The notes beneath the pieces are model-generated. The model did not search any database. It worked only from the letters and a program-made list of their open reading frames with translations, and had not been told where the DNA came from. DNA of 34,383 bases, from assembly GCA_011526375.1 (NCBI GenBank), contig WTIT01000096.1:1-34383 (forward strand), given 5' to 3'. This DNA is from Methanobacteriota archaeon (GTDB taxonomy: Archaea > Thermoplasmatota > Poseidoniia > Poseidoniales > Poseidoniaceae). The stretch's first letter is position 1. Each line of letters starts with the position of its first letter. The translations under genes were made by a program, and so were the position numbers. Of this stretch, positions 9,973 through 21,588 are shown in pieces.

Positions 9973-11412
9973 TTATTCAAAAAGTTGGTCGAGTAGCCAA
10001 TCTGGATCGAATTGTTGTAGATCATCATACCCTTGGCCAACTCCTGCAAATACGATTGGTCGGCCTGTAGCAAAGGCGATTGAAAGTCCTGCGCCGCCTT
10101 TGGCATCGGTATCCAATTTTGTAAGTACTGCTCCATCAAATTTCATTATCTCTTGGAACATTCTTGCTTGGTCCACTGCGTCATTACCAGCCAATGAGTC
10201 GCCAACAAACAAAGTGAGGTGTGGATTTGCAACCCTTCTTACTTTGTTTAATTCGTTCATGAGATTGGATTTGTTTTGCATTCTTCCGGCAGTATCCACC
10301 AATACTACATCGATTCCTTTGGCTTGAGCAGATTCTATCGCATCTCGGGCAATTGCTGCCGTATCGCCACCTCGTTGGCTAGAGATACATCTAATCCCTA
10401 GATTTTCACAATGTGCTTCCAGTTGCTGTATTGCTCCGGCTCTAAAAGTATCTCCAGCCGCAGCGATTACTGAGAGTCCGTTGTTCATTAGTCGCTTAGC
10501 AATTTTCGCTGCAGTGGTGGTTTTTCCTGTTCCGTTAACGCCAACTAACATTATCACTACAGGAGTGTCTTTCGCATCAATAAATGACTTTACTGAAGCA
10601 TCAAAGTCCCAGTATCCTGCTTGCAATATATTTCTTAATGCCCGCTTTAATGCTGCTTCTACAACCCTGGATAGATCTGCACCTTTACGCAATCTGGAAC
10701 CGATTAAATTCGTTCGAAGTGCGTCAATTACTGCAGTTACTGCATCGCTTGAAATATCGGATTCCAATAATACCCATTCAAGTTCTTCCAATAGATTATC
10801 AAGCGCAGCACTTGATTTAATCAATTTTCCACCAGACTCAACTACTCCACCGCCAAGTTCAACTTCTATGGTTGAGCCTGTCTCAGTCTCGATACTAGCT
10901 GATTTTACAGAGCCTTTCGGTGCTTGAGCAACCTCGACTAATTTTCTACCGGTGGTTGTTCTCATCATAGACAAATCTACTTTTGAGCCTGCAGGTCTAG
11001 CAACTTCCATTGCACCACGCTTTTTCATTGATTTTTCATAGGCTTTTTTTGCCTTTTCCAATTGCTTCTGTTCCTTCTGTAAGCGTTTCTTTTCTTTGCG
11101 TGTAAGTTGTTGAGGCATGAAGTCTTCTTCATCGTCAAAATCTTCCCAATCGTCATCTGAATCTTGATTTTCAACTGTTGATGTTTGGTCTTCATCATCA
11201 AAAACCTCCCAATCATCTTCATCGGTTACAATTTCATATTCTACATCATCATTGTTGTGATAAAAATCATCTTCTGCAACTGCTTGATCTTGAATCTTCG
11301 CAGACGCTAACTGCTGTCCCTCAATTGAGTCTTCCTCGACTGTTAACTCTTCGGTGTCAACTTCATCAGATACCTCTTTGACGCGTCGCTTGAATCTATC
11401 GAATAATCCCAT
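9973..11412 (-). CDS. ftsY: Signal recognition particle receptor FtsY
   Basis: GTPase that docks SRP-ribosome complexes at the membrane. From the ATG at 11412 the product is 479 residues (MGLFDRFKRRVKEV, a typical FtsY opening). A GTG at 11421, directly after the prefoldin stop, would add three residues. A long, strongly acidic N-terminal region (to about residue 110, many Asp/Glu with short basic stretches) is followed by a Lys/Glu helix (KEKKRLQKEQKQLEKAKKAYEKS) and then the NG domain. GTPase motifs are GVNGTGKTTTAAKIA (G1, about 288), DTFRAGAIQQL, DTAGR (G3), TKLDTDAKGG (G4) and GVGQGYDDLQQFDP near the C terminus. The gene starts 9 bases after prefoldin alpha and belongs to the conserved archaeal eL20-pfdA-ftsY string. 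Confidence 0.96.
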   Translation of the reverse strand: MGLFDRFKRRVKEVSDEVDTEELTVEEDSIEGQQLASAKIQDQAVAEDDFYHNNDDVEYEIVTDEDDWEVFDDEDQTSTVENQDSDDDWEDFDDEEDFMPQQLTRKEKKRLQKEQKQLEKAKKAYEKSMKKRGAMEVARPAGSKVDLSMMRTTTGRKLVEVAQAPKGSVKSASIETETGSTIEVELGGGVVESGGKLIKSSAALDNLLEELEWVLLESDISSDAVTAVIDALRTNLIGSRLRKGADLSRVVEAALKRALRNILQAGYWDFDASVKSFIDAKDTPVVIMLVGVNGTGKTTTAAKIAKRLMNNGLSVIAAAGDTFRAGAIQQLEAHCENLGIRCISSQRGGDTAAIARDAIESAQAKGIDVVLVDTAGRMQNKSNLMNELNKVRRVANPHLTLFVGDSLAGNDAVDQARMFQEIMKFDGAVLTKLDTDAKGGAGLSIAFATGRPIVFAGVGQGYDDLQQFDPDWLLDQLFE

Positions 11413-11421
11413 AGTACTCAC

Positions 11422-11988
11422 TCAGTCGTCTAATGTAAGTTCATTCCCAAACATTCCGCCACGCCGACGAGTCTTTGACTTTGCTTTAGTCTCGCTGTTT
11501 TTTGTTGGTATTTGGCGTGATAGAGGGGGCTCTTCTTGAGATGGTCGGGGAGTATTTTCTGATTGTAATTTTTCTGCAGCTTCATTAAATTCCTGAGCGA
11601 GTTTGCCTAACTTCTCTTCAATAGCGCCGGCTTGTTTGAGTAGGGTTTCATGTAAATCATTGAATTCTTCCCTTCTGGTAGCAAGTAATTCTACGATATC
11701 GCTCCATTTTCGCTCACCAAATATTCCGGCCCCTAAGTCAACAATTGCTGTACCTTCTGCAGCACCACTATGTTGAAAATTTAACGTGACTCCAGCGCCT
11801 ATTGAAATGTGTGCTTTTGCATCCCCTGATTTTGACATAGTTGTCAATCTGGTAAGAATTTCCTCAGTAATTTGATGTTCGTTAATCACACTGGTGATTT
11901 GATCCATACGGCGCTGTAACTCTTCCAAATGTTGCCGGTGACTTTCGACCAGTCTAGCCTTGTTTTGTAATTCACTGCGGTCAACCAT
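11422..11988 (-). CDS. pfdA: Prefoldin alpha subunit (GimC-like chaperone)
   Basis: Subunit of the jellyfish-shaped prefoldin chaperone that holds unfolded proteins for the chaperonin. The 188-residue protein has the family layout: an N-terminal coiled-coil helix (LQNKARLVESHRQHLEELQRRMDQITSVI), two beta hairpins (AHISIGAGVTLNFQ, GTAIVDLGAGIFGERKW) and a C-terminal coiled coil (ELLATRREEFNDLHETLLKQAGAIEEKLGKLAQEF). It is longer than the usual 140-150 residues because of a polar, basic tail (KAKSKTRRRGGMFGNE). It sits between eL20 and ftsY, the standard archaeal position for pfdA. Confidence 0.9.
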   Translation of the reverse strand: MVDRSELQNKARLVESHRQHLEELQRRMDQITSVINEHQITEEILTRLTTMSKSGDAKAHISIGAGVTLNFQHSGAAEGTAIVDLGAGIFGERKWSDIVELLATRREEFNDLHETLLKQAGAIEEKLGKLAQEFNEAAEKLQSENTPRPSQEEPPLSRQIPTKNSETKAKSKTRRRGGMFGNELTLDD

Positions 11989-12033: not shown

Positions 12034-12306
12034 CTACTCTTCTTCCTTGACTGGTGCGATTGTTCCGCCAGCCAATTCTATCTCTTCTCTGAAAGCGTGA
12101 AGGATTCGTGGCTCTGTTGAAGTTCTTGGATCGATTTCTTCTACTGAGTCGATTTTTATTGAACGGCGCTTAGCCTTGTGCCTAGAGCCCAAGGTGGAGT
12201 AGGCCATGTGCTCAGCATCATCTTTGGATTCTGCTGGAAAATCAAGGGTAAACTTGTGTCTAACGCTACCGAATGGTGCAATTCCGGATACTCGATATGC
12301 CTTCAT
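12034..12306 (-). CDS. rpl18a: 50S ribosomal protein eL20 (L18Ae/LX)
   Basis: Large-subunit ribosomal protein found in archaea and eukaryotes, here 90 residues from the ATG at 12306 (MKAYRVSGIAPFGS). An upstream ATG at 12324 would add six residues, but the TATA-like GTTTAAACC at 12329-12337 lies about 27 bases upstream of 12306 and supports the shorter form. The hallmark is YSTLGSRHKAKRRSIKIDSVEEI. It heads a run of co-oriented genes (prefoldin alpha, FtsY, DUF1844 protein, receiver-like protein), and its position next to pfdA and ftsY is a classic archaeal synteny. Confidence 0.92.
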   Translation of the reverse strand: MKAYRVSGIAPFGSVRHKFTLDFPAESKDDAEHMAYSTLGSRHKAKRRSIKIDSVEEIDPRTSTEPRILHAFREEIELAGGTIAPVKEEE

Positions 12307-12328
12307 CGAGTCGGCGACTTGCATGGTT

Positions 12329-12337
12329 GGTTTAAAC
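12329..12337 (-). promoter_or_regulatory. TATA-like box of the eL20-pfdA-ftsY operon
   Basis: GTTTAAACC on the minus strand is centred about 27 bases upstream of the eL20 ATG at 12306, fitting leaderless transcription of the operon. Confidence 0.45.
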
Positions 12338-12405
12338 TTCCCGTCGCGCCAAAATATGATATTTCATGCGAGAGATTGACTAATATTGAAGTTCTGAGGG
12401 GGTTC

Positions 12406-15400
12406 ATGCGGGGCATTTTACTGTGTATTTTGGTAGTCTTTGCCCCATTTGCTAGTAGTTTACCAGCGCCACCAAATTTTGATGATACTGTTGGCTTTGA
12501 AATATGGTATGAGTCTGTTATTGTTACACAAAATGAGGTTTGGGGCGACGAGATGTGGCAAGAGGTGATCAATGCTGGGGGCCACCCTCTTAGAACCCTT
12601 GACCAAGAAAGGTTGCTTGTATGGCGAACAGACAATTTTGAACTAGATCGAGGATGGTTTGCGGTTGGGTCTGAGTCCGCTGAATGGAAATCTGATTTGT
12701 TACTGGATAGTCAGGATTTTACCCAAATAAAAATCTTGTTTGAACCGCGGTTGCCCGATCATGCCTATTCACAAATCAAATTTGCTTTGCAGCAAATTGG
12801 AATTCAAGTGGAAGGCATGGATTTGTGGCAATACAACCCAATGCCACAAAAAGTGATTATAGATAAGCCAGAATCATTGGATTTGGTGTTAAAAACGCCA
12901 GGAGTGCTATGGGTTGAGCCTGTACTGTCAACAAATGCACGAAACTTAGCTGCATCGGCATACATGGGTGATAGAAATATTGCTACTCAATCCCATTGGG
13001 AGTTTGGTTTGAATGGTAATGGCGTTGTATTAGGTGTGGCCGACAGCGGGTTGGATATTGACCATTCTTGTTTTCGCAATAGCAGTGCGGCAATAGGCCA
13101 AGTAGGTGAAGAACATCGCAAGGTTTTGGTCAATAATATCAGTCTTGATGACGGCGATAACCCCGGAGAAATGGACTATCGCCATGGCACTCATGTCGCC
13201 GGTTCGCTAGTCTGTCATGACGTGTACAACTACCTTAACGAAGAAAAACCCCAAAATGGTTCTACAATGGCTTACGGCGCCAAGTTAGTCTTTCAAGATA
13301 TAGTATCGCAAGATGGTTGGATTCCTCCCGAGAATGTAACGGATTTACTGATTGAGCATTCACTAGCCGGGGGAATTATTCATTCAAACTCGTGGGGCGA
13401 TGATACTACCGCATACACCGATAGAACTGCTGATTTCGACTTATGGGCTCTAGAAAACCCGTGGTCTCTGTCGTTTATTGCGCCAGGCAACACAGGAGGG
13501 CAATTGCTGGAGCCGGCAAATGGACGTAATGTTGTTGCTATCGGTGCATCGACGAAATCATCAAGTCCAGAAATTTGGCAATCATCATCGGTTGGCCCTA
13601 CTGAATTAGGCACATATGGAATATTCGCCCTTGCACCAGGTGTTTCAATTTCGTCTGCTAAGGCTGATGGTATCGACGATTCGATGAATGATGCTTTGAG
13701 AGCGTCCAGCGGCACCAGTATGGCTACACCTATTGCGGCATCTTATGCTGGCATTATCCAGCAAATGGTTGAGCAGGGTTGGATTATGTCAGCCAATGAG
13801 CCGGTAAACACCTACAACTTATCTGATATCAAGCCTTCATGGTCAACCTTACCAGATGAAAACCTCAGTTTGGGTAATGGTTTCACCCCATCTGGTTCAC
13901 TGATAAGATCGTTAATGGCTATTGGAACTACTGACATTGATGTCGAAAATGGTTACTTCAACAGAAATAACGATTCTGGATGGGGCGTGCTTTCGCTTGA
14001 CAGGTTGATAGATTTTGAAAAACTTGAACAATCATTAGGACAAGATAACTTAACGCCAAGTCAAAACGTTTGGATTCACGATAGTTATCGTAGTTCTTTC
14101 GATACCGTCGATTGGTTGACAAATAGGTTTCAAGCCAGTCCTTCGGGCGATATAACAGAGAGTCCATGGAATGGTCAGGGCGCTGCTGGACCGTTTTTGA
14201 GCACAGGTGAAAGTTGGTCAAAACGGTTGGTGCCAAATCAGAACGAAGATTTTCAGATTGTTTTATCGTATCCAGCAAAACCAGAGCCTTTTGTTGTTGA
14301 TGACTTGAGATTGATGGTTAATTTATCAAATGGTTACACTGCAGTTGGAGAGGTTTACGATCCTGATGGATTTTCATCTTTGTATACAACTAATGATTTT
14401 ACCATGTCTCAGTTTGAACAATCTAATGAAACAAGCCTCGGAATTAAAATTTCATTGGACGATTTGACCGATGTTGAATGGTTAGATGTTGTGGTTCAAG
14501 CCAACTATATATCTCCTGGAAACAATCCTGGAACTGTTGGTGTTGATGGTAATTCCGTTGGATTTGCCCTTGCTGCGACTGGAGTGGTTAGAGACTCAGT
14601 AAATTGGGAAGATTCTGATGGTGACGGTATGCCAAATGCCATTGATGAGTGCCCGAATCAACATGCACAATCCTATGATTTAGATGAGGATGGTTGCCCT
14701 GATGATATTGATGGGGATGGCGTAATCGATGAATATGATGATTGTCCAACAGTAAACTCCCAAGGTTTTGATGGAGATCTAGATGGTTGTGTAGATGACA
14801 GTGATGGCGATGGCATCGGAGATAATGTCGATATTTGTCAGACTGAAATTATCGATTCGGTATATCCAGTAAACAGTACTGGCTGCAGGCCAATTGATGC
14901 CCCAATAATCGTGATTGAGGGGGAAATTACTGGATTGAATGAAGGGATTTGGGACTCGGAGGTTGTGGTGACTTGGCAGGTTAATGATGAGGATTTAGAT
15001 CCATACCTTACCGGTTCTAGAATAATGATAAACCAGACAAACAACAATTCTTTCTTCCCAATAGCTACGTGTACTGCTCAAGATGTATTGGTTGTTGGGA
15101 ATATTCACCAATGTACTTGGGACATCAATTCCGATTTGCCAATTTTTGATGTTACTGGTTATGGCATGCACATACAGTTCTTTGCTCAAAGCCTAAATGC
15201 GTCACCAGAAGCATATAATGACATTGTATATTTGGACTCTGAAACGTACTTTTTCACTCCTAGTAACACAAACTTCAACTCTGCCGATAATAGTCCAGCA
15301 TCGGCAAGTTTCACGCGCTCGATTGGATGGGGAATTGTTACGATTTTTTCCGTTGCTTTGGTGTTGAGTAAATTGTGGTCGGTAACTAGAGAAAATGGCA

Positions 15401-15462
15401 AATCTGCCAACAATGAGCCTTTTTTGCAGACAAATCGGTCATTTTTGAATGAAAACGAGTGA
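12406..15462 (+). CDS. Secreted subtilisin-family (S8) serine protease with thrombospondin type 3-like calcium repeats and C-terminal membrane anchor
   Basis: A 1018-residue extracellular protease. The ATG at 12406 is chosen because GAGGGGG lies just upstream (12396-12402) and it opens a signal peptide (MRGILLCILVVFAPFASSLPA). Upstream in-frame codons overlap the eL20 gene. A pro-region of about 170 residues precedes the catalytic domain, whose triad is Asp213 (GVADSGLDIDH), His260 (YRHGTHVAG) and Ser438 (SSGTSMATP), with the oxyanion Asn near HSNSWGDD. A C-terminal beta-rich region follows, then Asp-rich calcium repeats of the DxDGDG type at about 735-815 (DSDGDGMPNAIDECPN, DIDGDGVIDEYDDCPT, DSDGDGIGDNVDIC). 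A hydrophobic segment at about 967-988 followed by basic residues would anchor it to the membrane. Likely role: degradation of external protein. Confidence 0.94.
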   Translation: MRGILLCILVVFAPFASSLPAPPNFDDTVGFEIWYESVIVTQNEVWGDEMWQEVINAGGHPLRTLDQERLLVWRTDNFELDRGWFAVGSESAEWKSDLLLDSQDFTQIKILFEPRLPDHAYSQIKFALQQIGIQVEGMDLWQYNPMPQKVIIDKPESLDLVLKTPGVLWVEPVLSTNARNLAASAYMGDRNIATQSHWEFGLNGNGVVLGVADSGLDIDHSCFRNSSAAIGQVGEEHRKVLVNNISLDDGDNPGEMDYRHGTHVAGSLVCHDVYNYLNEEKPQNGSTMAYGAKLVFQDIVSQDGWIPPENVTDLLIEHSLAGGIIHSNSWGDDTTAYTDRTADFDLWALENPWSLSFIAPGNTGGQLLEPANGRNVVAIGASTKSSSPEIWQSSSVGPTELGTYGIFALAPGVSISSAKADGIDDSMNDALRASSGTSMATPIAASYAGIIQQMVEQGWIMSANEPVNTYNLSDIKPSWSTLPDENLSLGNGFTPSGSLIRSLMAIGTTDIDVENGYFNRNNDSGWGVLSLDRLIDFEKLEQSLGQDNLTPSQNVWIHDSYRSSFDTVDWLTNRFQASPSGDITESPWNGQGAAGPFLSTGESWSKRLVPNQNEDFQIVLSYPAKPEPFVVDDLRLMVNLSNGYTAVGEVYDPDGFSSLYTTNDFTMSQFEQSNETSLGIKISLDDLTDVEWLDVVVQANYISPGNNPGTVGVDGNSVGFALAATGVVRDSVNWEDSDGDGMPNAIDECPNQHAQSYDLDEDGCPDDIDGDGVIDEYDDCPTVNSQGFDGDLDGCVDDSDGDGIGDNVDICQTEIIDSVYPVNSTGCRPIDAPIIVIEGEITGLNEGIWDSEVVVTWQVNDEDLDPYLTGSRIMINQTNNNSFFPIATCTAQDVLVVGNIHQCTWDINSDLPIFDVTGYGMHIQFFAQSLNASPEAYNDIVYLDSETYFFTPSNTNFNSADNSPASASFTRSIGWGIVTIFSVALVLSKLWSVTRENGKSANNEPFLQTNRSFLNENE

Positions 15463-15574: not shown

Positions 15575-16579
15575 ATGAGTGACCGCCTTTATGTTGGAAT
15601 TGACCTAGGAACATACCAATCTACTATCTCTTCAAGTGCTGGTGCAAGCCACACAATTGAGACTATAGTAGGAAGACCGAAAGACCCTGTAGCAAGAAAC
15701 TTTCTCGGAAGAGATGTATTGTTTGGTAATGATGCCTTGAAGAACAAGCTTGCATGTAACCTATACAGGCCTATGGCAGCTGGTGTTGCTCAAGATGATG
15801 AGGCGAACTTAGCGGCTGCTAAGGCATTCGTTTCCCATCTTCTAGAGACGGTGGACCCTGAAGAATACGACGAGGTATTCGGCGTTATTTGCTCACCAAG
15901 CCACGTATCCTTTACTGACAAATCAAACCTTGTCGCTACGCTAAGAGGACAAGTTAACGCAATAATGGTGGTAACAGAACCTTTCGCTACTGCTTATGGT
16001 ATCGAAGAAATTGCTGGGTCAATCGTTGTCGATATCGGTGCTGGAACCACAGATATTGCCCGTATCCACGGAACATTCCCATCTGATGAAGACCAAATCA
16101 CCATCCAAGAGGCTGGAGATTGGCTAGACCTTGCTTTGATGGAATTAGTCGTCAAGAAGTACACCGGCGCTCAAGTTACCAAAGATATGGTCCGCCGTTG
16201 GAAAGAAGCCTCATCATATGTTGGTAAGGAAACCAAGGAAGTCATGGTTGAGTTGTCTGTTGAAGGAAAGAAGCAGGTAGTAGATATCGGGGATCTAATC
16301 GTTGAGGCATGTGAATCAATTATCCCGCTGGTCGGTAATGCGATAAAGAAAATCGTTGCTACCGCTGACCCAGAATATCAGCCAGTCCTAAGAAACAACA
16401 TCATCCTCTCTGGTGGCGGTTCACTAATTGATGGTATTGCAGCAAGAATGGCTGAAGAAATTTCTGATATTGGAGATGTCAATGTATGGTGTGTAGAAGA
16501 TGCTATCAACAGCGTAGCAAATGGCGCACTGAAACTTGCTGGTGAAATGCCAGATGACATGTACACTGCAATTAACTAA
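15575..16579 (+). CDS. Actin-like ATPase of the MreB/MamK superfamily, most like MamK
   Basis: A 334-residue predicted filament-forming ATPase. Start ATG 15575 gives MSDRLYVGIDLGT and has GGTGA at a good distance; the frame is open further up but overlaps the protease. Actin-fold motifs: phosphate-1 loop GIDLGT (8-13), phosphate-2 loop DIGAGTTD (153-160), adenosine motif LSGGGS (about 278-283). Several stretches recall magnetosome MamK rather than MreB: VGRPKDPVARNFLGRDVLFGNDAL after the first strand pair, VVTEPFATAYGIE, the sequence HGTFPSDEDQITIQEAGDWLD after phosphate-2, ATADPEYQPVLRNNIILSGGGS, and the ending NGALKLAGEMPDDMY. Length is close to MamK (about 350). No magnetosome genes are visible nearby. 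The next gene encodes a long coiled-coil protein and is probably cotranscribed. The MamK assignment is from remembered family motifs. Confidence 0.88.
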   Translation: MSDRLYVGIDLGTYQSTISSSAGASHTIETIVGRPKDPVARNFLGRDVLFGNDALKNKLACNLYRPMAAGVAQDDEANLAAAKAFVSHLLETVDPEEYDEVFGVICSPSHVSFTDKSNLVATLRGQVNAIMVVTEPFATAYGIEEIAGSIVVDIGAGTTDIARIHGTFPSDEDQITIQEAGDWLDLALMELVVKKYTGAQVTKDMVRRWKEASSYVGKETKEVMVELSVEGKKQVVDIGDLIVEACESIIPLVGNAIKKIVATADPEYQPVLRNNIILSGGGSLIDGIAARMAEEISDIGDVNVWCVEDAINSVANGALKLAGEMPDDMYTAIN

Positions 16580-16632
16580 ACCCAATAGCGGATTTTTTGA
16601 TTGGGTCGATAATACGGCCTTTTGGACCCAAA

Positions 16633-17943
16633 ATGATTGGGAAAGTTCAAGAGTGGTTGATTACCGATAGGCGTCGTATGACAGTCGGCTCCTCATCACC
16701 CAGCGGAATAAAACGTGCCGGTGATAACTCTTCAGAAGAGCGGGCTGCACTGGAAGGAATGTTACAAGGATATCCAGTAGAACAATTGGTCGAGGAAGTG
16801 CTAATTGCCTGGGATGAATTGGCAAAAAGAAATGATGAAATGGTCTCAGTTAAGCAAAGACTGCGCGTATTAGAACTCGACTTGGCAGAAAGAGAAGACA
16901 TGGTTGCGCCTGAAGTTGCCCGAATGAAAGATTTGGAGACTGAACTGGAAGAACGTCGAAGTCAAATGGTTCATCTTGAGCGTTTATTATCCGATGCTAG
17001 ACAAGATTTAGCCGCACAACAATCATCGCTATCCAATGAAGAAAGGGTGCGGCTTGAGGACGAAGTTGAAGCTTTGAAATCCTTAACCTCTGAACAGGAT
17101 GAAGTTATTGGAGAAATGGAAGGAAGGGTTGCACAAATGGTTGAGGCTCTAGAGCGTGCTGCTGATGCCGGTCTAACTTCAGTCACTGCTGATGAAGTTC
17201 GAAGTTTAAAATCCCAAGTAGACAACATGACAAAACAGTATGAGGTCGAATTATCGGCGAATAAAGCATTGGAAGAAGAGCGTCAGAGACTCCGAGATAT
17301 TGCAGATCGATTACGTGGATTATTGGATGCTCGTGATAACAGACTAACAGAGTTAGAAGAGCAGTTAGAGAGAGTTATGCAGGGTCCTCGTTCGGTTTCT
17401 GCTGAACATGATTACTTAGTTGAACAAATTGAAGAGTTGAAGCGCAGGCTACTAGAGAGAAACCGTGAATATGAGTCTCTGCGAAGAAGGGAGAGGCGCC
17501 TACATAGTGATGTCTTTGAAAGAGATGAGAGAATACAGCAAATGTCTCTAACAATGAGTGATTTAGAGTCTGCATTACAAGATAGAACTGCTGAATTAAG
17601 GGAATTAGAGAGTATTAGGGAAACCATGTCTAATGAATTGGACTCTGTTCGTCGTGGAGAGCGTACCAGAGAAGTTGTTGGTAGAGTATTTGCCGATTCT
17701 TTATCCTTGGTGAGAGGTCATGATGAACGTGAGATGAAGCGTGAAATCTATGCTAACTCACCTGATGTTGAAAGAAAATTATCAACTCCTGATATAGATG
17801 ATATGGCAAACTTAGCTGATGGTGGCAGGGTCGATCTAGGTGTTGAAGAAACTGTTATCGAACCAGGTATGGAAGTAGATACGAATCGTCCTGCCGCACC
17901 AGGCGGTAGTGGTGACCCTGTTATCTTCGATGATGAAGACTGA
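16633..17943 (+). CDS. Long coiled-coil protein downstream of the actin-like gene
   Basis: Function unknown. From the ATG at 16633 the product is 436 residues (MIGKVQEWLITDRRR...). A TTG at 16597 and an ATG at 16678 (MTVGSSSPSG) are alternatives. After a short basic/Ser-rich head and a helical segment (LEGMLQGYPVEQLVEEVLIAWDELAKRN), residues of about 70-370 form heptad-rich Glu/Arg/Leu coiled coil (VKQRLRVLELDLAERED, LEERRSQMVHLERLL, LEEQLERVMQG, VEQIEELKRRLLERNREY). The tail is acidic and disordered (GSGDPVIFDDED). No signal peptide or membrane segment. It follows the MamK-like gene by 53 bases on the same strand, so a filament-binding, scaffolding or SMC-like structural partner is plausible. 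Not an SMC: no Walker motifs. Confidence 0.85.
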   Translation: MIGKVQEWLITDRRRMTVGSSSPSGIKRAGDNSSEERAALEGMLQGYPVEQLVEEVLIAWDELAKRNDEMVSVKQRLRVLELDLAEREDMVAPEVARMKDLETELEERRSQMVHLERLLSDARQDLAAQQSSLSNEERVRLEDEVEALKSLTSEQDEVIGEMEGRVAQMVEALERAADAGLTSVTADEVRSLKSQVDNMTKQYEVELSANKALEEERQRLRDIADRLRGLLDARDNRLTELEEQLERVMQGPRSVSAEHDYLVEQIEELKRRLLERNREYESLRRRERRLHSDVFERDERIQQMSLTMSDLESALQDRTAELRELESIRETMSNELDSVRRGERTREVVGRVFADSLSLVRGHDEREMKREIYANSPDVERKLSTPDIDDMANLADGGRVDLGVEETVIEPGMEVDTNRPAAPGGSGDPVIFDDED

Positions 17944-17950
17944 GTTTATC

Positions 17951-18790
17951 TCACAAAACTGTAGTTATTGCAGAGATCTTGTTTGCTAAGTCTGTAAGGT
18001 CTGTTGCATCTTCAGTTAATGTGCCTGTAACTATCCAGTCAGCCCCGGCATCAGCAGCAATCTTAGCTTGTTCAGGCGTCCTTATTCCGCCACCAACTAT
18101 CATAGTAAGCCCTTCAGTGGTTTTTGCAGATTTTATTAAATCTGGACTTACCTGCTTATCAGCACCACTCCCAGCTTCGAGGTATAGAAGTTTGAAACCA
18201 TACATTGCTGCAGTTAATGAATATGCCTTAACTAAATCAATGTCATCCTCCATAATTAGATCAGCGCTGCCAACCTCTCCTACTTTCCCTCCTGGGTGGC
18301 ATACAATGTATCCAGTAGGCAATGCATCGATGTCAAATTTGTCGATGTATGGCGCCCCCCTTACCTGCTCTCCAACCAAAAATCTACGGTCAGTTGAATT
18401 CATCAACATCATGAAAGTGATGGCATCAGCGGCAGGCGACAAGGCATGAGAGCCACCAGGAAAGAGCACGACTGGAACCTTCCATCTATCCTCGTCGCCA
18501 TCTGGTGATTGGCTAGCAGCAAATGCTCGTAATTCCAAGCCCTCCTGAATTGCAACACATGTTGCATGCACTATCTCGTCTGGTGTGTCTGTTGAGCCCC
18601 CGACAAATATCATCGATGAGCCCGATTCTATTGCCACGCATGCTCTATCTGCGGCGGTCTGAGGAGATTGTTTGTCAGGGTCAATCAGAGTAACATGTCT
18701 AGTTACCCCTTTGGTATTGGTTACATATGCTAGGATTGATTCATCGTCTCTACGCATGCCAACCATTCGTTGCTCTAACCTATAACGCAT
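17951..18790 (-). CDS. Geranylgeranylglyceryl phosphate synthase (GGGPS/PcrB family)
   Basis: Joins geranylgeranyl diphosphate to sn-glycerol-1-phosphate, the first committed step of archaeal ether-lipid synthesis. The 279-residue product has the TIM-barrel signature motifs HVTLIDPDK (about 32-40), MIFVGGSTD, VVLFPGGSHALSPAADAI, GYIVCHPGGKVGEVG, LLYLEAGSGADKQV and MIVGGGIRTPEQAKIAADAGADWIVTGTL, which bind the glycerol phosphate and metal. A second in-frame ATG at 18766 (MVGMRRDDE) is a good alternative start. AATAAATAT at about 18791-18799 would be the right distance for a leaderless transcript beginning there. The gene is divergent from the ABC exporter gene and is strong evidence that the genome is archaeal. 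Confidence 0.94.
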   Translation of the reverse strand: MRYRLEQRMVGMRRDDESILAYVTNTKGVTRHVTLIDPDKQSPQTAADRACVAIESGSSMIFVGGSTDTPDEIVHATCVAIQEGLELRAFAASQSPDGDEDRWKVPVVLFPGGSHALSPAADAITFMMLMNSTDRRFLVGEQVRGAPYIDKFDIDALPTGYIVCHPGGKVGEVGSADLIMEDDIDLVKAYSLTAAMYGFKLLYLEAGSGADKQVSPDLIKSAKTTEGLTMIVGGGIRTPEQAKIAADAGADWIVTGTLTEDATDLTDLANKISAITTVL

Positions 18791-20679: not shown

Positions 20680-21588
20680 ATGCAAAAAAAACACAGTTTG
20701 AGAACTATGATAACAGAGAAATTCTCGAAAACCACAAGCCTGCTTTTGATTGCCACCATGACCCTAGCGCTTGCATCAACTGTAAGCGCTGCTGACCCAG
20801 CAATGCCGTCAGCTATTGGTGAAGACGGATTGCCTGTATTCCTAGATGATGGTGTAGGCGACGACACATTAGAACTAATTACGTTCTTCTTGTTCTTCGT
20901 CGGTTACATCTCCATGGGTGCAGCATTTGTTTTCTTCATGTCTGAAAGAAACAATGTTGCTCCACAATACAGAACCACAATGACCATATCCGCACTTATC
21001 GTCGGTATCGCCGCATTCCACTACTACTACATGCGTGGCGTATACGCTGACTACGGAACTGTATCAATTGAGTACAGATACATGGACTGGATAATTACCG
21101 TTCCATTGATGGCTCTTAAGTTCCCTAGCCTAGTTGGCAAGGACGCTATTACTGATGCTAAGTTCCTAGGTATGGGATTCACTGGTGTATGTTTCACCGG
21201 TGCTCTAATCATGATCGGTTTCGGTTACCTAGGTGAATCCGGTGCTATGAACGGACTAGCTGGTCTAGTTCTTGGTGGTGTTGGATGGGCTATGATTATC
21301 GTAGCAACTGGTACCCCATGGTCATCTGGACTGGGTGTCGACAACAGCAAGATCAAGTCAGAGTTGATGTGGTCTGCAAACGCTCTACGATGGTTTATCG
21401 TAGTCGGTTGGATCATCTACCCTCTAGGTTACTTGTTCAGCCCAGAAGCTGACCTACTAGATGGTGACCAAGAGTTGATGGCTGTTGCTTACAACATCGC
21501 TGACATGATCAACAAGATCGGTTTCGGTATTGTTGCATGGATGGGTGCTAAGAAAGCAACCGAAGCTCTTGCTGCATCAGAAGAGTGA
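20680..21588 (+). CDS. Proteorhodopsin (light-driven proton pump), D-T-K motif
   Basis: A 302-residue retinal protein, or 293 from the ATG at 20707. An N-terminal signal-like segment (TTSLLLIATMTLALASTVSA) precedes seven membrane helices. Retinal is attached to Lys279 in helix G (YNIADMINKIGFG), with Asp275 as second counter-ion. In helix C (EYRYMDWIITVPLMALKF) the primary acceptor is Asp136 and Thr140 is conserved. The position of the usual Glu proton donor (Glu108 in the bacterial GPR) is Lys147. His114 (FHYYYMRGVY) matches the GPR His75. The tuning site (GPR 105) is Met144, which suggests green absorption. Codons end in C or in CTA/GGT more than in neighbouring genes, as in strongly expressed genes. 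No carotenoid or blh-type retinal-synthesis gene is within the window. Its stop abuts that of the convergent gene. Confidence 0.96.
   Translation: MQKKHSLRTMITEKFSKTTSLLLIATMTLALASTVSAADPAMPSAIGEDGLPVFLDDGVGDDTLELITFFLFFVGYISMGAAFVFFMSERNNVAPQYRTTMTISALIVGIAAFHYYYMRGVYADYGTVSIEYRYMDWIITVPLMALKFPSLVGKDAITDAKFLGMGFTGVCFTGALIMIGFGYLGESGAMNGLAGLVLGGVGWAMIIVATGTPWSSGLGVDNSKIKSELMWSANALRWFIVVGWIIYPLGYLFSPEADLLDGDQELMAVAYNIADMINKIGFGIVAWMGAKKATEALAASEE

Follow-up and report, generated by a model that had tools for sequence, protein, structure and literature searches.

The Poseidoniales genome examined here encodes a MamK-like actin, here named A, that belongs to a larger conserved gene set. A subtilase gene lies upstream of A, a long coiled-coil protein (C) is encoded directly downstream and, at an unlinked locus on another contig, a second MamK-like actin (B) lies behind a zinc-ribbon protein (D). 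The earlier note had proposed that A and its coiled-coil neighbour are an undescribed filament and scaffold pair. This was supported, with the qualification that the system is larger and takes in the subtilase, B and D. Homology, fold, catalytic residues, synteny, co-distribution and the loss of a conserved block of C where the actin is missing have been shown. The A/B/C/D set is apparently undescribed, and its MamK-type filament seems to do another job, with no sign of magnetosomes. Features of the window, which is the whole 34,383 nucleotide stretch of DNA that was analysed, are listed in Table 1.

Table 1. Features of the window at and around the actin A locus
Feature	Position	Strand	Basis or remark
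S8 subtilase ORF with a C-terminal transmembrane segment and short tail	12178..15462	+	PF00082 2.7e-24; synteny
Actin A, MamK-like actin-fold ATPase, 334 aa	15575..16579	+	NF040964 HMM, PDB, AF2 model, invariant residues
Coiled-coil protein C, 421 aa, cytoplasmic, encoded by the next gene after A	16678..17943	+	in-frame stops, heptads, synteny
N-terminal module of C, residues about 21-165	16738..17172	+	free-standing homologues in actin-less genomes
Ultra-conserved block of C, residues 236-295, GPRSVSAEHDYLVEQIEELKRRLLERNREYESLRRRERRLHSDVFERDERIQQMSLTMSD	17383..17562	+	candidate filament-binding element (inferred)
Geranylgeranylglyceryl phosphate (GGGP) synthase, convergent flank marking the locus, outside the system	17951..18790	-	synteny
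FtsY and prefoldin-like genes, conserved divergent flank, outside the system	9973..11988	-	synteny

Actin A is a relative of MamK

Relatives of A align from the methionine at 15575, which is taken as the start; the longer open reading frame from 15449 is an upstream extension. When compared with HMMs of actin families, A scored 338 bits with MamK (NF040964; E 7e-101), 212 with BeeR, 78 with MreB, 27 with salactin and 14 with crenactin. None of the cut-offs was reached: 337.6 bits compares with a curated cut-off of 400 for MamK, and the cut-offs are 530 for BeeR, 400 for salactin and 630 for crenactin, while the two MreB scores (77.7 and 69.4 bits) compare with cut-offs of 293 or 365.75. Sequence matches in the PDB were to MamK (E 1e-63), BeeR (1e-40) and MreB (about 1e-12). 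Homology to the MamK of AMB-1 is full-length, at 33–38% identity, and the proteins are similar in length.

Structure prediction, which had been suggested for the filament, was run for A. The AlphaFold2 model, built with 35 aligned proteins, has a pLDDT of 89.9 and a pTM of 0.87, and its best PDB match is the MamK filament 5ljv (TM 0.93/0.95, rmsd 1.7). Residues equivalent to the catalytic Glu143 and Asp161 of MamK (E143, D161) are invariant in the 35 aligned sequences. From homology, fold and catalytic residues we conclude that A is a genuine relative of MamK. The earlier claim that A carries motifs diagnostic of MamK rather than of MreB or crenactin held; the motifs are present and the HMM and PDB comparisons agree. 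Placement among MreB or Hsp70 proteins, which would have counted against the earlier proposal as a whole, was not found: HMM scores, structural comparison and phylogeny all put A with MamK. That A polymerises into an ATP-dependent double-helical filament is inferred, and there are no polymerisation data.

MamK, the actin whose filaments align magnetosomes in magnetic bacteria, is the closest characterised relative of A and shares its fold and its catalytic Glu and Asp. However, A and B both miss the 400 bit cut-off, fall outside the MamK clade and have C, D and the subtilase as neighbours instead. No mam or mad genes were recognised by eye among the genes of the window or in about 5 kb around B, and the claim that no magnetosome genes are nearby therefore held for the window at this level of scrutiny. 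BeeR, a three-stranded tubular actin from Verrucomicrobiota, is a MamK relative in organisms without magnetosomes and provides the next-best solved structure for A (PMC11929497). It is marked by a disordered N-terminal extension of 30–50 aa that is absent from A, which begins directly before the first strand. Salactin, found in Haloarchaea, is also archaeal and is reported to be closest to MamK (PMC10746226), but it belongs to another lineage and has a long charged N-terminal tail that A lacks. Crenactin, an archaeal actin regulated by its partner arcadin-2 (PMC5173319), represents a different actin family.

Phylogeny of the MamK-like actins

A tree was constructed from the archaeal actins and bacterial MamK proteins from named genomes, with salactin and crenactin sequences left out. 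Bacterial MamK proteins formed one clade (support 100/100), and A, B and an actin from another Thermoplasmatota family (genome G133) fell outside it. The A sequences formed one clade and the B sequences another. Whether A and B together make up a single archaeal clade was neither shown nor rejected (AU p = 0.31). Because A scores below the cut-off and lies outside the bacterial clade, we regard it as a MamK-like sister lineage that should not be filed as MamK. Only the best 80 of 539 relatives were sampled and more than 450 weaker MamK relatives were left out, so that where the archaeal actins fall with respect to those weaker bacterial proteins is provisional.

In G133, the locus at L122 9128–12279 encodes a MamK-family actin that, at 435 bits, is above the MamK cut-off. 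The gene immediately after it is for an unrelated coiled-coil protein of 618 aa, which was considered as a homologue of C and rejected, as there is no significant similarity. The same contig also carries archaeal Kae1 and archaeal Dph6. None of the 11 other genomes of the class has such an actin, and contamination of this MAG is 7%.

A tailed-phage contig in IMG/VR also encodes a full-length MamK-like actin that scores 359 bits with NF040964, on contig IMGVR_UViG_3300009370_000045 (L218 4989–6032, + strand). It is directly upstream of the terminase large subunit gene and near the major head protein gene, and we conclude that it is a phage-encoded MamK-type actin.

The subtilase and the conserved locus

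A signal-like stretch begins near residue 77 of the subtilase open reading frame, and the true start is therefore probably near 12406. At the other end, a transmembrane segment and, after it, a tail of 7–41 residues were present in all 18 loci checked (18/18), as would be expected if the protein were a protease of the cell surface whose short end lies in the cytoplasm. Wherever a carrier locus extends far enough, this gene is directly upstream of A.

The order subtilase–A–C is syntenic in two families, namely that of the window (f1; genera g1, g11–g15, g17 and g19) and its sister family (f2; genera g5, g7, g9 and g21). A lack of conservation of the gene pair in related genomes would have counted against a filament and scaffold pair and was not observed, with the exception of one genus. 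C is directly downstream of A in all of the carrier loci read, except in g18 (L128 4829–9858), where the subtilase and A are adjacent and the next gene, which overlaps the end of A, is methionine sulfoxide reductase-like. C was not found in the 11 kb read at this locus, a search that was not genome-wide. Thus, C is not indispensable beside A. The g18 A is the fastest-evolving and most divergent A in the tree.

The gap between A and C is 98 bp, and a possible stem-loop (ACCCAAT...ATTGGGT) lies within 16577–16680; this rests on computed energy only, without comparison to shuffled sequences or relatives. Scans for promoters and terminators gave nothing above shuffles. A rhodopsin-like gene near the actin locus (20680–21588), by eye a proteorhodopsin, fits a surface-ocean archaeon.

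The coiled-coil protein C

The long open reading frame of C comprises 448 codons from a TTG at 16597. However, in most close relatives its first 27 codons are interrupted by an in-frame stop, and more distant relatives match only from codons 26–28, and we conclude that the ATG at 16678 is the real start. The earlier note had described a coiled-coil protein of about 436 residues downstream of A on the same strand, and this held apart from the length, which is 421 aa. Hydrophobic occupancy of heptad positions a and d across residues 41–352 is 0.66, versus 0.48 ± 0.02 in shuffled sequences (z = 8.4). No transmembrane segment was found in C. There is a weak score with SMC models that possibly reflects nothing more than coiled-coil composition.

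Conservation is concentrated in the block at residues 236–295, which is about 85% identical between the families, while much of the remainder of C is only 20–50% identical. The block is found only in actin-carrying genomes and is absent from actin-less ones. This makes it the best candidate for a filament-binding element, an inference for which there are no binding data. In the simplest reading, which is likewise inferred, the block would contact the filament and the N-terminal module would contact something that persists without the filament.

A second actin and its zinc-ribbon neighbour

Actin B is 49% identical to A and scores 366.3 bits with the MamK HMM NF040964, again under the cut-off of 400, and 70 bits with that of salactin (cut-off 400). 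Its neighbour D has about 338 aa, and the two genes are conserved together in both families. Most members of D have CxxC pairs at both ends, and the central domain is highly conserved. In g18 (L102 2589–3521 and L103 2588–3526), the N-terminal zinc ribbon of D has been lost and the C-terminal one kept. An AlphaFold model of D was of low confidence (pLDDT 72, pTM 0.50) and had no convincing PDB match when searched with Foldseek.

B was also considered as a non-polymerising partner, as it has Asp at the position where the A278D substitution blocks polymerisation of MamK. This was rejected, as MamK proteins vary at that position. Separately, a protein of 145–162 aa encoded near the archaellum cluster in three genomes (L233 2958–3395, L234 4442–4882 and L236 628–1116) matches the helical C-terminal part of D over 36–69 residues at 36–47% identity, which is a short and weak match.

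Distribution and probable joint loss

In a survey of 390 genomes of the phylum, most of them incomplete assemblies, with matches counted by eye, all 72 genomes sampled from the window's family (72/72) had at least one strong match to the actins. In the sister family, strong matches were confined to 10 of 55 genomes (genera g5, g7, g9 and g21), and none was found in eight genomes of f3, a neighbouring family of the same class. At least nine of the ten f2 carriers have both A and B. Full-length C and D were checked in 24 f2 genomes and are distributed in the same way as the actins.

In actin-less f2 genomes, the A locus has neither the subtilase nor A, and C persists only as its N-terminal third. 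This remnant is a free-standing protein of 155–166 aa. Five genomes (from g3, g6 and g10) have it, flanked by L18Ae and GGGP synthase, and a sixth copy (G056) is cut by the contig end. It is gone from g4, and in g2 any trace of it is weak and doubtful. At the B locus of non-carriers, D and B are missing beside the thiolase gene, before the next conserved gene, in 12 of the 12 genomes read. Thus, two unlinked loci are affected in the same genomes. In a four-gene tree, the non-carriers formed a single clade that branches within the carriers, a placement indicative of vertical inheritance and of loss rather than gain.

The joint loss of A, B, full-length C and D was likely a single event. As it probably occurred once, in a lineage with smaller genomes, it is weak statistical evidence of linkage. 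Two g5 genomes (G039 and G299) were considered as independent, repeated losses and rejected; both also lack the flanking prolyl-tRNA synthetase gene and are probably explained by assembly gaps, with the A-locus flank of G039 at a contig end.

That the joint loss was probably one event could be taken to support the view that A and C are mere neighbours, A being a filament without a dedicated partner and C acting in an unrelated process. The retention of the subtilase and A in g18, with no C at the locus, points the same way. However, adjacency of A and C has been kept across genera of two families, and the point at which C is truncated separates the module that survives from the most conserved part, which is lost. 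We therefore consider this explanation unlikely.

A second alternative is that particle-attached cells use the A/B filament to place or anchor the archaellum or a different adhesion appendage. The archaellum operon is reported to occur throughout the Poseidoniaceae and in half of the genera of Thalassarchaeaceae (PMC6461757). Archaellin-type genes were found in 34/36 f1 genomes, all of the window's genus, and the match between D and the small archaellum-cluster protein could also be read in favour. However, that match is short and weak, two g7 genomes from f2 (G044 and G058) have both actins and no archaellin, and three g4 genomes have one archaellin-type match and no actin. We doubt this explanation, and the archaellum as a cargo identified by co-occurrence was rejected, as archaellin overlaps with the actins but does not track them in f2.

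Tubulin-family genes were found in 60 of the 60 genomes surveyed, carriers and non-carriers alike, within the limits of assembly completeness; most have two strong FtsZ-type genes and a third, weaker one. As FtsZ genes persist where the actins are missing, the actins are not needed for division. Compensation for actin loss by tubulin-type genes was rejected, because these genes are present with or without actins. Among the functions that had been suggested earlier (shape, division, appendages or an internal structure), none has direct evidence, and division is unlikely given that FtsZ is unaffected.

Proposed function

We propose that A, which represents a sister lineage of bacterial MamK, forms actin filaments driven by ATP. 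C would be a long coiled-coil adaptor, on the cytoplasmic side with A; its central conserved block would hold on to the filament, and its N-terminal module would dock on something also present without the filament. The organised structure would most likely be at the cell envelope, and the best candidate for a cargo or anchor is the membrane-anchored surface subtilase encoded upstream, with its short C-terminal tail predicted to face the cytoplasm. B and D would be part of the same system, with B either co-polymerising with A or forming a parallel filament. C and D would then tie MamK-type filaments to an envelope structure. As a whole, this model of filament, C/D adaptors and envelope could as readily prove wrong as right. 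Polymerisation, binding of the block to the filament, docking of the N-terminal module, cooperation between A and B and the subtilase as cargo are all inferred, with no experiment and no interaction data behind them. Nothing identifies the cargo directly, and co-transcription of the locus has not been shown.

There is a precedent for such an arrangement in Desulfovibrio magneticus, where two related actins, MamK and Mad28, and the coiled-coil proteins Mad20, Mad23, Mad25 and Mad26 place magnetosomes (PMC12748827). The likeness to A/B and C is in the way the system would work, and no homology between C and Mad proteins is claimed.

It remains possible that A and B instead form a filament for chromosome segregation or general cell organisation, like salactin, with C as a bundling or DNA-linked factor and not an envelope adaptor. 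Salactin is reported as closest to MamK, the keywords of the paper describing it include DNA segregation (PMC10746226), and C scores, if weakly and perhaps only through its composition, with SMC models. Against this, the scores of A and B with the salactin HMM (27 and 70 bits) are low relative to the cut-off of 400, one entire clade of the order has neither actin, and the gene that consistently lies beside A encodes a surface protease anchored in the membrane. We continue to prefer the envelope model.

Implications

The Marine Group II archaea (Poseidoniales) are uncultured and rank with the most abundant archaea in surface ocean waters. An actin cytoskeleton in this order was not mentioned in the Marine Group II and archaeal genome and ecology literature that we searched, and no paper treating MamK together with Marine Group II was found in the literature searched. 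A bolder reading, which we consider less likely than not, is that Poseidoniales have an undescribed two-actin cytoskeleton, composed of A with C and the surface subtilase and of B with D, that was inherited from the ancestor of the order. As A, B and the third Thermoplasmatota actin lie outside bacterial MamK, the magnetosome actin may in that case have been drawn from a more ancient family of filaments that had no magnetosomes to serve and was possibly archaeal.

The conserved pair of MamK-like actins and their neighbours provide concrete genes with which the cell organisation of Marine Group II can be tested, and the remnant of C at actin-less sites points to a 60-residue candidate binding element. 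A and B are magnetosome-free relatives with which to ask what MamK-type filaments do outside magnetosome alignment.
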